Source of the DNA: Armatimonadota bacterium
GTDB taxonomy: Bacteria; Armatimonadota; Fimbriimonadia; Fimbriimonadales; GBS-DC
Length of the DNA stretch: 64,000 nucleotides
Assembly (NCBI GenBank): GCA_013359125.1
Contig: JABWCR010000003.1
Location: 1-64,000, forward strand
Direction of reading: 5' to 3'
Positions 53,851 through 57,828 of the stretch are shown here, in pieces; the first letter of the stretch is position 1, and the number at the start of each line of letters is the position of its first letter. The translations under genes and the position numbers were made by a program. The notes beneath the pieces were generated by a model, which was not told the origin of the DNA, searched no databases, and saw nothing but the letters and a program-made list of their open reading frames with translations.

Positions 53851-55644
53851 ATGAACCAGCGGAACGTCCGAAACTTTTGCATCATCGCCCACATCGACCA
53901 CGGCAAGTCCACCCTTGCCGACCGGATCATCGAGGCCACCGGCGCCCAAACCGCAGGCGTCGACCAGATGCTGGATACCATGGACCTGGAGCGAGAGCGC
54001 GGAATCACCATCAAAATGACCGCCGTCCGTCTGAACTACGTTGCACAGAACGGCAAAACCTACCAGCTCAACCTCATCGACACGCCCGGCCATGTCGATT
54101 TTGCCTACGAAGTCTCCCGCAGCCTCGCCGCCTGCGAAGGCGCCCTCCTCGTCGTCGATGCCTCTCAAGGCGTCGAAGCGCAAACCATCGCTAACACCAA
54201 CCTCGCCATGGTGCAAGGCCTAACGCTCATCCCCGTCATCAACAAAATCGACATGCCTGCAGCCCAGCCCGAGCGCGTCAAAGAGGAAATCGAGAGCGCC
54301 CTCGCCCTCAGCGCAGAAGACGCCGTATTAGCCAGCGCCAAGCAAGGAATCGGCATCCGTGAAATCTTAGAAGCCGTCGTTGAGCGAATACCGCCCCCCA
54401 AAGGCGACGCCCATGCCCCCTTGCGCGCGCTCGTCTACGACTCCCACTACGACTCCTACACCGGCGTCGTCGCCTACGTCCGAATCATGGACGGCGAGAT
54501 CAAACCCAAGCAAAAGATACGCTTTATGCAGACCGGCGCCGAATTCGAAGTCGCCCAAGTCGGCTACTTCACCCCTCGCATGGTGCCCGCCAAAGCGCTC
54601 CACACTGGCGAAGTCGGCTATGTCATCGCCAGCGTCAAATCGGTCAAAGACGCACAGGTCGGCGACACCATCACCTCGGCCGACAAATCGGCCTCGATAC
54701 CGCTCGACGGCTTTAGAAGAGCCAAACCGATGGTCTTTTGCGGCCTCTTCCCCGTAGAAGGCGATCGATACCCCGACCTGCGAGAGGCGCTCGAAAAACT
54801 GCGGCTGAACGACGCCGCAATCGCCTTTGAGCCCGACACCAGCGCCGCGCTCGGTTTCGGATTCCGATGCGGCTTCCTCGGACTGCTTCATATGGAGATC
54901 GTACAAGAGCGGTTGGAGCGCGAATACAACCTCGATTTGATCGCCACTGCCCCCAGCGTTCTCTTTCGAGTGCACGGCACGGACGGCAAAGTTCAAGAGA
55001 TCGACAATCCGAACGAGTTTCCCGACCCCACAGCCATTGCCCGAATCGAGGAGCCTTTCGTCAATGCCACCATCACCGCGCCCGCCGAATACATCGGTGC
55101 CGTCATGTCGCTCTGTATGGGCCGCCGCGGAGAGTACGTTCGCATGGAGTACCCCGTGCCCTCCCGAGCCATTCTATACTTCAAGCTTCCCCTCAGCGAA
55201 ATTCTGCTCGACTTTTACGACCAACTAAAAAGCCAAACCCGAGGCTACGCCGCATTCGATTACGAGATCGGCGGTTACCAGGAGGCACAGATGGTCAAGC
55301 TCGACATCCTAGTCAACGGCGAGCCGGTCGATGCGCTCAGCTTCATCACGCCCAAGGATCGCGCCTACCCTCGCGCCCGCGCCCTTACAGAGAGGCTCAA
55401 AGAAGTCATCCCTCGCCAACAGTTCGAGGTCAAAATACAAGCCTCCATCGGCGCGCGCATCATCGCCTCAGAGACCATTCGCCCCTTCCGCAAAAACGTG
55501 CTGGCCAAATGCTACGGCGGCGACATCACTCGTAAGCGAAAATTGCTGGAAAAACAAAAAGAGGGCAAAAAGCGGCTGAAGCAGATCGGATCGGTCGAAG
55601 TACCCCAAGAAGCCTTCCTCAGCGTGCTCAAAGTGGGCGAATAG
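53851..55644 (+). CDS. lepA: Elongation factor 4 (LepA) GTPase
   Basis: A 597-residue ribosome-associated GTPase that back-translocates or remodels stalled ribosomes and aids subunit assembly. The G1 motif is [15 protein letters not shown]2 region [10 protein letters not shown]3 DTPGHVDF, G4 NKIDMPAA. The domains after that include the LepA-specific C-terminus ([20 protein letters not shown]). Length and order match the family. It is monocistronic or first in a unit, with a -10 box 12 nt upstream and no Shine-Dalgarno. Confidence 0.97.
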
Positions 55645-55732
55645 GCACGACGGCAGGAAACTTTGCCAGGCTCTCGAACTTTTCGTCAAGACAGCCCTAA
55701 AGAATTATCGCCCAGCGGCCAACAATCAAGAT

Positions 55733-55738: not shown

Positions 55739-55769
55739 GAGGGCGCCACGATGCGTCCAGGCAGAAAAA

Positions 55770-55850
55770 GGCAAAGTCGCGGCGACGCGGCGACGCAAAG
55801 CCCAAGGGTCTGCAAGCCTCAAGACAGGGGAAGCAGACAGCCGGGTTGCC
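55770..55850 (+). ncRNA. Cyclic-di-GMP-I riboswitch (GEMM-I) aptamer
   Basis: The sequence follows the GEMM-I consensus closely: GGCAAA (55770-55775), P2 stem GTCGC/GCGAC (55776-55780 with 55790-55794), the conserved GCAAAGCC (55795-55802), GGG, the P3 stem GTCTGC/GCAGAC (55808-55813 with 55833-55838), and AGCCGGGTTGCC (55839-55850). P1 forms by GGCAA with TTGCC. It binds the second messenger c-di-GMP in known members, and these often control motility genes. Here the gene downstream encodes FlgM. A covariance-model search (Rfam RF01051) would be decisive. Confidence 0.87.
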
Positions 55851-55888
55851 TGCCCAAACTGCGCGACAGCCGCGCAAGGGGGCAGCAA
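55846..55888 (+). promoter_or_regulatory. Alternative helix masking the flgM ribosome-binding site
   Basis: TTGC (55846-55849) and TGCCC (55851-55855) can pair with GGGCAGCAA (55880-55888), enclosing an inner hairpin TGCGCG/CGCGCA (55860-55865 with 55871-55876). The 3' arm covers AAGGGGG (the ribosome-binding site at 55876-55882) and its spacer. TTGCC is the same strand that closes P1 of the aptamer, so the two structures exclude each other: c-di-GMP would favour P1 and open the site. Confidence 0.6.
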
Positions 55889-55889
55889 G

Positions 55890-56180
55890 ATGAGAATATC
55901 GATAGACGAGGCGAGAAACGTAGCCCGCCTCTACCAAGCCGAAGGCGAAGTTTCAATCGACCTGGCATCCGTAACGCCACCGACCACCGACGCCGTTACC
56001 CTGACCGACGATGCCGAACTGGTCAAGGAAGTCTTGGCCGAAGTCAAAGCCCAGCCCGACATCCGAGACGAACGCGTAACCGAGCTGAAAGCCGCTTACG
56101 AATCGGGCCAATACACCGTCGACGCCAAAGCCGTGGCCGATGCCATCGTGCGACGCGCCCTGGCCGACCGAATCAAGTAA
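55890..56180 (+). CDS. flgM: Anti-sigma-28 factor FlgM
   Basis: A 96-residue protein with the FlgM C-terminal sigma-binding pattern: AELVKEVLAEVKAQ, IRDERVTELKAAYESGQYTVD, AKAVADAIVRRALADRIK. FlgM holds sigma-28 (FliA) inactive until the flagellar hook is finished. The start ATG 55890 is set by AAGGGGG 7 nt upstream and by the aptamer, which excludes longer in-frame starts. No other flagellar gene is in the window; parAB follow. Control by the upstream riboswitch is inferred. The DNA gives no sign of recent transfer. Confidence 0.88.
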   Translation: MRISIDEARNVARLYQAEGEVSIDLASVTPPTTDAVTLTDDAELVKEVLAEVKAQPDIRDERVTELKAAYESGQYTVDAKAVADAIVRRALADRIK

Positions 56181-56191
56181 GCCCGCTCCGG

Positions 56192-56197
56192 TACAAT
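56192..56197 (+). promoter_or_regulatory. -10 box TACAAT upstream of parA
   Basis: CGGTACAAT ends 10 nt before ATG 56208; the gap ATCGGACGGC has no convincing ribosome-binding site. Confidence 0.5.
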
Positions 56198-56207
56198 ATC
56201 GGACGGC

Positions 56208-56978
56208 ATGGCTCATATAGTCGCCGTCGTCAACCAAAAGGGCGGGGTGGGCAAAACCACCACGGCTGTCAATCTAGCCGCGGGACTGGCGGCCCTCGGC
56301 TACAAAACGCTGCTTATCGACGCCGATGCCCAGGCCAACGCCACCAGCGGGGTCGGAGCCAAAAAGGAAGGCGCCACCCTGTTCGAGGCGCTGACCGGCG
56401 AAGCCGAACCCAAAGAGGCCATAGTCGCCACCGCCATCGAAAACCTCTTCCTATCCCCCGCCAGCATCGACCTGGCCGGATTTGACGTGATCATGGCAAA
56501 CCAACCCGAAAGAGAACTTCGCCTAAGATCCTTCGTCAACGCCGTAAAACCCGAATACGACTGGATCGTCATCGACGCGCCGCCCTCCCTAAGCCTGATG
56601 ACCATCAATGCGATGGCGGCCTGCAATGGCCTGATCGTACCTATTCAGTGCGAATATTATGCACTGGAAGGCCTGGCCAGCCTGATTCGAACCGTAGACC
56701 TCGTTGCCCGGTCGATCAACCCCAACCTATCGATCTGGAAGGCGCTCCTAACCATGCGAGACCCGCGCACCAAGCTTGCCCAACACGTCGAATCGGAGAT
56801 TCGAGCCTATTTGGGACAGAAAGTGTCCGAAATAGCAATCCCGCGCAACATAAAAGCAAGCGAATCGCCTAGTTTTGGCCAACCATTGGTCGTATTTGCC
56901 CCAAAATCGCCCGCAGCACGAGCCTATGTCCAATTTTCAAAGGAGGTCGCAGAACTTGGAACGTCGAGGATTGGGTAA
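56208..56978 (+). CDS. parA: Chromosome-partitioning ATPase ParA (Soj)
   Basis: A 256-residue deviant Walker ATPase that positions origin regions with ParB. The motif NQKGGVGKTTTAVNLAAGLA is at 9-28, LLIDADAQANAT is motif A', and the Walker B region WIVIDAPPSLSLMTINAM follows. Length fits the chromosomal (type Ib/Soj) form without an N-terminal HTH domain. It overlaps parB by 23 nt. The pair often lies near the chromosomal origin, but gidA, gidB and dnaA are not present here. Confidence 0.97.
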   Translation: MAHIVAVVNQKGGVGKTTTAVNLAAGLAALGYKTLLIDADAQANATSGVGAKKEGATLFEALTGEAEPKEAIVATAIENLFLSPASIDLAGFDVIMANQPERELRLRSFVNAVKPEYDWIVIDAPPSLSLMTINAMAACNGLIVPIQCEYYALEGLASLIRTVDLVARSINPNLSIWKALLTMRDPRTKLAQHVESEIRAYLGQKVSEIAIPRNIKASESPSFGQPLVVFAPKSPAARAYVQFSKEVAELGTSRIG

Positions 56979-57828
56979 GGGACTTTCAGAACTCTTAGGA
57001 ACCAGCGCCGCAGACCAGGGCGTCCGACAGATCCCGCTCGACCAAATCGCCGCAAACCCCTTGCAACCGCGACAATCCTTCGATGGCGAATCGCTTCAAG
57101 AAATGGCCGAAAGCATTCGATCTGTCGGCATACTGCAACCAATCATTGTTCGACAAATCGCCGACGACCGTTTCGAGCTCATCGCGGGCGAACGCCGCAT
57201 GCGCGCGGCCAAAATTGCAGGACAAACCACCGTGCCGGCCATTGTGCGCCAATCCGACGGCGACGATTCTCTCGCGCTCGCCCTCATCGAAAACGTCCAG
57301 CGAGAAGACATCAACCCGATGGAAGAGTCTCGAGCTTACTATCAGCTCATCCGTCGCCACGGCATGACCCAAGAGCAAATCGCGGTCAAAGTCGGCAAAA
57401 AACGATCGACCGTTGCCAACAAACTTCGCCTGATGAACTTGACGGAAAACGCTCAAGCAGCGCTGATAGAGGGCAAAATCACCGAGAGCCACGCTAAGTT
57501 TCTGCTCTCGCTGGAACCGGAGCGGCAAGACCCCGCGCTCCAAATGATCATCGAGAAAGACCTGAGCGTGAGCGCCGCGACCGAGCAGTTTGGCCAAAAG
57601 CCGAAGCCGCGCATGGCCGTTTCGATGAGCTCTCGCTATACCGAGGCATTACCGCCCGCCCCTGTCGAGACGCCTCTGGAGCGCGAGCTTTCGCTGGCGT
57701 TGGGCTACAAAACGCGCATCCATTCCAGCCCCGGCGGCATCAATAGGCTGACGATCGAATTCTATTCGGACGAAGACCTTGACCGCCTCGTCTCCCTCCT
57801 CGCGCCGGACGGCCTGGCCAACCTCTAA
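56956..57828 (+). CDS. parB: Chromosome-partitioning protein ParB (Spo0J)
   Basis: A 290-residue CTPase/DNA-binding protein loaded at parS. TTG 56956 is chosen as start: AAAGGAGGT precedes it by 9 nt, and it gives the classic opening ERRGLGKGLSELL. ATG starts upstream in frame (56875, 56926) lack this. The ParB/Srx domain has RQIPLDQIAANPLQPRQSF and the CTP-binding GERRMRAAKIAG; the HTH region reads MTQEQIAVKVGKKRSTVANKLRLM, and the C-terminal dimerisation domain ends the protein. No parS-like palindrome (TGTTTCACGTGAAACA type) was noticed within or near the gene. Confidence 0.96.
   Translation: MERRGLGKGLSELLGTSAADQGVRQIPLDQIAANPLQPRQSFDGESLQEMAESIRSVGILQPIIVRQIADDRFELIAGERRMRAAKIAGQTTVPAIVRQSDGDDSLALALIENVQREDINPMEESRAYYQLIRRHGMTQEQIAVKVGKKRSTVANKLRLMNLTENAQAALIEGKITESHAKFLLSLEPERQDPALQMIIEKDLSVSAATEQFGQKPKPRMAVSMSSRYTEALPPAPVETPLERELSLALGYKTRIHSSPGGINRLTIEFYSDEDLDRLVSLLAPDGLANL

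Follow-up and report, generated by a model that had tools for sequence, protein, structure and literature searches.

A widespread c-di-GMP-I riboswitch in the flgM leader of Armatimonadota, predicted to act as a translational ON switch within the sigma-28 feedback loop

The window, the whole stretch of 64,000 nucleotides that was analysed, carries on its forward strand an aptamer of the c-di-GMP-I type between lepA, which ends at 55644, and the start codon of flgM (ATG, 55890). The flgM gene (55890-56180, + strand, with the stop codon ending at 56180) encodes an anti-sigma-28 factor of 96 aa. This protein scores 58 bits with PF04316 and 53.5 bits with TIGR03824, above the curated cut-offs of both models (25 and, for the TIGR03824 equivalog, 40.75), and the initial annotation had rightly named flgM as the gene that the RNA would control. 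parA lies directly 3' of flgM in 12 of the 15 loci of the window's family, and in the window the series flgM, parA, parB spans 55890-57828; because parA follows flgM at once, with parB in the window as well, these chromosome partition genes may be carried on the flgM transcript. The same genome encodes FliA, with 238.5 bits in the FliA/WhiG model against a cut-off of 189.6, and contains six GGDEF domains. Another contig of this genome (C20, L190:1351-2649) encodes a 432-residue protein in which a FliA/WhiG-like sigma region is joined to a C-terminal GGDEF-like domain, in a gene that adjoins a pilC-like gene. A sigma factor fused with a GGDEF-like domain is, to our knowledge, unusual.

The aptamer was located by cmscan at 55760-55853 (+), where RF01051 (c-di-GMP-I) is matched over the full model (1-87) with 51.1 bits and an E-value of 4.7e-7 for the 64-kb window. 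This score exceeds the gathering score of 35, bearing out the GEMM-I aptamer that had been proposed from the letters alone, and the match is the sole one to RF01051 across the 2.82-Mb genome. The motifs GGCAAA, GCAAAGCC and AGCCGGGTTGCC, on which that proposal was based, were found at the place given for them. The location of the aptamer was likewise correct; its start, however, had been set at 55770 and is corrected here to 55760, because the 5' strand of P1 (GGCAG) occupies 55760-55764. P1 comprises 5 bp, and its 3' strand is CTGCC at 55850-55854. The strand named in the initial annotation, TTGCC at 55846-55850, consists mostly of the end of P3 and the position of C92, although its TTG does have a part in the alternative helix described below. 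P2 is a hairpin (GTCGCG-GCGA-CGCGGC, 55776-55791, +) with a GNRA tetraloop, and the RF01051 alignment and the folds together recover the P1 closing helix, P2 with its GCGA loop and P3, all intact as had been claimed.

The positions that we take, from Vc2, to contact the ligand are the equivalents of G20, A47 and C92, which the Rfam alignment places at 55770, 55797 and 55849 (+). They hold G, A and C, the canonical set and not that of the GGC variant. Across 86 aptamers of relatives the GCAAAG stretch is invariant, including its GC and AAA. A covariance model built from these 86 aptamers was discarded; its consensus was poor (8 pairs), and MAFFT had misaligned P2 between families. By score, core bases and helices, the RNA of the window is of the c-di-GMP-I class and would be expected to bind c-di-GMP. 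The closing helix itself shows covariation: among the 15 leaders of the window's family, 95.6% of P1 cells are paired with nine double changes, a score that none of 500 shuffles reached, and order-wide the P1 strands pair better with their own partners than with swapped ones (mean 7.64, where 500 permutations gave at most 7.40).

The 3' strand of P1 has a second possible partner. The six nucleotides CTGCCC at 55850-55855 (+), of which the first five form the P1 3' strand, are all complementary to GGGCAG at 55880-55885 (+), the anti-P1 strand, which overlaps the Shine-Dalgarno sequence read directly as AAGGGGG at 55876-55882 (+), 7 nt before the ATG. Since the strand 55850-55854 is common to both, P1 and the helix that sequesters the ribosome-binding site are mutually exclusive, as the initial annotation had anticipated. 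In the ligand-free ensemble, the anti-P1 helix forms with a probability of about 1.0, P1 with a probability of about 0, and the final three G of the Shine-Dalgarno sequence are paired. The ensemble folds further place a spacer hairpin (TGCGCG-ACAGC-CGCGCA, 55860-55876, +) within the anti-P1 helix, and TTG at 55846-55848 can lengthen this helix through CAA at 55886-55888, with C55849 bulged, an extension that the initial annotation had noticed. Taken by itself, the window shows an anti-P1 complementarity that is unexceptional against shuffles (p = 0.15). Over the family the alternative helix is 90.8% paired; its covariation is weak, the score being reached by 54 of 500 shuffles, perhaps because one strand is the Shine-Dalgarno sequence and cannot vary.

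The energetics were modelled for the window with five assumed 5' ends and two 3' ends. Opening of the Shine-Dalgarno sequence costs 8.6-10.8 kcal/mol in the free RNA and 2.3-6.6 kcal/mol when P1 and P2 are enforced; because opening is cheaper once P1 has formed, c-di-GMP should turn flgM translation ON, a predicted direction that was the same under every 5' end tested. Enforced-P1 folds were used here; a leader cut right after P1 understates the effect in the window's family, which has a longer P1. In these models, forming the P1 state costs 5.3-8.4 kcal/mol relative to the free state, which tight binding of the ligand could cover. Of 91 leaders of the order, 69 respond to enforced P1 with an opening of the start-codon region that exceeds 1 kcal/mol, in agreement with the ON direction put forward in the initial annotation, 5 with a closing of more than 1 kcal/mol, and 17 with no clear change. 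An intrinsic terminator was sought on the + strand of the window and none was found, so a terminator platform was rejected. Since the scan gave no such terminator and the aptamer lies only 13-87 nt from the start codon in the order's leaders (36 nt in the window), translational control is the likeliest platform and a translational ON switch the likeliest mode predicted by these models.

A putative sigma-28-type promoter precedes the aptamer, with a -35 element TAAAGAAT at 55698-55705 and a -10 element GCCAACAA at 55718-55725 (both +), from which transcription is predicted to start near 55732. At 12 of 16 matches to TAAAGTTT-N12-GCCGATAA (55698-55725), the window promoter is imperfect and its pattern is common genome-wide. 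When three mismatches were allowed, the pattern matched about as many places in the same genome as a reversed control did, so the case for a sigma-28 promoter is drawn from conservation and not from the window by itself. A sigma-28 promoter would be expected to read TAAA-N15/16-GCCGATAA upstream of the leader, and the form that recurs is TAAAG, a spacer of about 12 nt after the octamer, and GCCGATAA. The same element is found at the same position in most of the 91 homologous leaders, ending about 18-36 nt 5' of the aptamer in most of them and about 35 nt in the window. A score of at least 11/16 is attained by 66% of leaders and by 4.6% of shuffled upstream regions, and two loci outside the order (L027 and L029) match at 16/16. 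With such a promoter ahead of the aptamer in the majority of leaders, the mRNA for FlgM appears to be transcribed by the very sigma factor, sigma-28, that FlgM inhibits.

The pairing of aptamer and gene extends across the order Fimbriimonadales (Armatimonadota), whose 113 genomes contain 94 RF01051 matches. In 82 of these an FlgM domain lies 120-205 nt downstream on the same strand, which speaks against a chance association. A further nine, all from one genus, precede short genes that start with MQIS and have an FlgM-like end region; three of the nine were tested with Pfam, two falling below the cut-off and one giving no match, so their reading as FlgM relies on neighbour similarity and position. 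With these divergent genes included, 91 of the 94 aptamers lie directly upstream of flgM. The other three RF01051 riboswitches of the order (L026, L079 and L080) precede genes for subtilase-like proteases, so named from motifs in their translations. A lax rescan of eleven flgM loci that had no RF01051 match recovered a sub-threshold c-di-GMP-I aptamer at the expected place in five of them. AdoCbl-II riboswitches were seen near the flgM loci L160 and L161, which lack a c-di-GMP aptamer. Linkage through neighbouring genes was considered and rejected: LepA lies upstream in the window only and ParA downstream in one family only, that of the window, and because the neighbours differ, it is the riboswitch-flgM pair itself that is conserved. 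For many members of the Fimbriimonadaceae, the partner of the P1 3' strand TGTCTGAAA is not the Shine-Dalgarno sequence; the complementary stretch is ATTTCAGAC, the first codons of flgM, so the platform differs between lineages. The pair is also kept at L138 in Fimbriimonas ginsengisoli (G080), even though this strain has been described as non-motile (PMC4072686).

Beyond the order, places matched by RF01051 were cross-matched with those of FlgM, and among the matches listed the arrangement was found in at least 48 further genomes, which belong to ten more families of the phylum; in these, FlgM lies 166-263 nt downstream of the aptamer. Some Armatimonadota families have, among the matches listed, FlgM without a linked aptamer. 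The arrangement is thus widespread in the phylum, not universal, and this distribution marks it as probably ancient. A search for FlgM in a contig collection gave just three loci, all from distant Actinomycetota, and none of them had an RF01051 match close by. At three loci outside the order (L017, L007 and L008), the leader has GTTTGCCTTTTT-like stretches complementary to the conserved 5' core of the aptamer; at L017 the stretch is GTTTGCCTTTTTG, giving an alternative pairing unlike that of the window. These pairings represent a different expression platform. A functional switch would be expected to show just this, a conserved purpose carried out by platforms that vary with the lineage. The observation made in the initial annotation is confirmed and its interpretation supported, with its coordinates corrected and its scope widened from one locus to the phylum.

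These results are best accounted for by a c-di-GMP-I riboswitch in the flgM leader that acts as a translational ON switch inside the sigma-28 feedback loop, a reading to which we assign a probability of roughly 0.8. The aptamer class, the gene, the phylum-wide linkage, the exclusive pairings and the conserved sigma-28-like promoter element were all obtained by computation; binding of c-di-GMP, the ON direction and the effect on sigma-28 are inferred from them. In the proposed circuit, RNA polymerase with sigma-28 (FliA) would transcribe flgM from the promoter about 35 nt 5' of the aptamer. When c-di-GMP is low, the Shine-Dalgarno region would be paired with the P1 3' strand, little FlgM would be made and sigma-28 would stay active. 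At high c-di-GMP, the ligand would stabilise P1, the Shine-Dalgarno region would open and FlgM would be produced, which would sequester sigma-28 and shut down the late flagellar genes. That this circuit is ancestral and phylum-wide in Armatimonadota, with sigma-28 transcribing flgM and c-di-GMP licensing its translation through a riboswitch without a protein receptor, is probable.

Translational leaders often alter the access of Rho and RNases as a side effect, and the riboswitch could act mainly through transcription or mRNA stability by such factors instead of translation initiation. Longer leaders with U-rich hairpins do occur in some other families of the phylum (L007, L008 and L017) and would suit such a mode; in the window, by contrast, the + strand offers no intrinsic terminator, only 36 nt separate aptamer and ATG, and the competing helix covers the Shine-Dalgarno sequence itself, which makes this explanation unlikely. 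A related doubt concerns the sensor, which might have degenerated and lost c-di-GMP sensing, or might be a variant for another ligand, as in the c-di-GMP-I-GGC or cAMP-GMP types. In the local scan, RF03167 (c-di-GMP-I-GGC) came out ahead of RF01051 by E-value, RF01051 scores are low in Fimbriimonadaceae, and in three relatives the G20 position is occupied by A. Against this, the window reaches 50.6 bits with RF03167, short of the 59 that this family sets as its gathering score, and at position 47 it carries the A of canonical c-di-GMP-I in place of the G of the RF03167 consensus; for these two reasons the variant was rejected and the window aptamer, although related to that family, was filed under c-di-GMP-I. 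With G20, A47 and C92 kept in the window and GCAAAG invariant among the aligned aptamers, a degenerate or altered sensor is very unlikely at this locus. The flgM aptamers with A at G20 are those of L119, L082 and L083 (genomes G093, G115 and G114). This base is a feature of cAMP-GMP-selective relatives, and ligand preference at those three loci might differ.

The sign of the response could also be the reverse, with the bound riboswitch repressing flgM. An OFF switch has precedents: Vc2, on tfoY of Vibrio cholerae, is described as restricting translation when bound (PMC7371385), and Cd1 of Clostridioides difficile is reported, when bound, to cause termination within the early flagellar operon (PMC5386303). 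Among the leaders analysed, this direction was predicted in 5 of 91. However, for the window, as for 69 of the 91 leaders, the P1 of the bound state competes directly with the RBS-sequestering helix, giving ON, and an OFF switch would mean that high c-di-GMP lowers FlgM and raises sigma-28 activity, contrary to the usual role of this second messenger. Repression by the bound aptamer is accordingly quite unlikely, and induction of FlgM by c-di-GMP is the reading retained below.

The locus resembles Vc2 in its aptamer class, its canonical ligand-core bases and its translational control, and differs in that Vc2 is reported to restrict translation when bound while the window is predicted to be ON with an anti-sigma factor as target. 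With Cd1, on the flgB operon, it shares a c-di-GMP-I riboswitch and a lowering of flagellar expression at high c-di-GMP, an instance of the known GEMM riboswitches on motility genes to which the initial annotation had alluded. Cd1 terminates the early operon that encodes sigma-D (PMC5386303), whereas the window would raise the late regulator FlgM through translation. The C. difficile flgM promoter is sigma-D dependent, and the passages of that paper which were consulted describe no riboswitch on it. The sigma-28/FlgM feedback of Salmonella, Bacillus and C. difficile likewise involves a sigma-28-type flgM promoter through which the sigma factor drives production of its inhibitor; the difference here is the predicted c-di-GMP gate on the translation of that inhibitor. 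In agreement with the earlier remark that a switch on flgM is not a standard example, no published description of flgM under a c-di-GMP riboswitch came out of the literature search, and an earlier tabulated mention in the GEMM discovery papers is possible. The RNA class itself is known; novelty appears to lie in flgM as the target, in the predicted sign and in a circuit that spans the phylum.

It is mostly through protein receptors that c-di-GMP is known to restrain motility, or, in C. difficile, through riboswitch-dependent termination in the early flagellar operon. If true, the circuit proposed here would constitute a direct, receptor-free link from c-di-GMP, the sessile-state signal, to the late flagellar checkpoint, kept in at least 15 families. 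Its logic is predicted to be that of an AND gate inside a feedback loop, in which flgM transcription reports sigma-28 activity while c-di-GMP gates the translation of FlgM. For Armatimonadota, a phylum with few isolates, it would furthermore provide a defined regulatory target.
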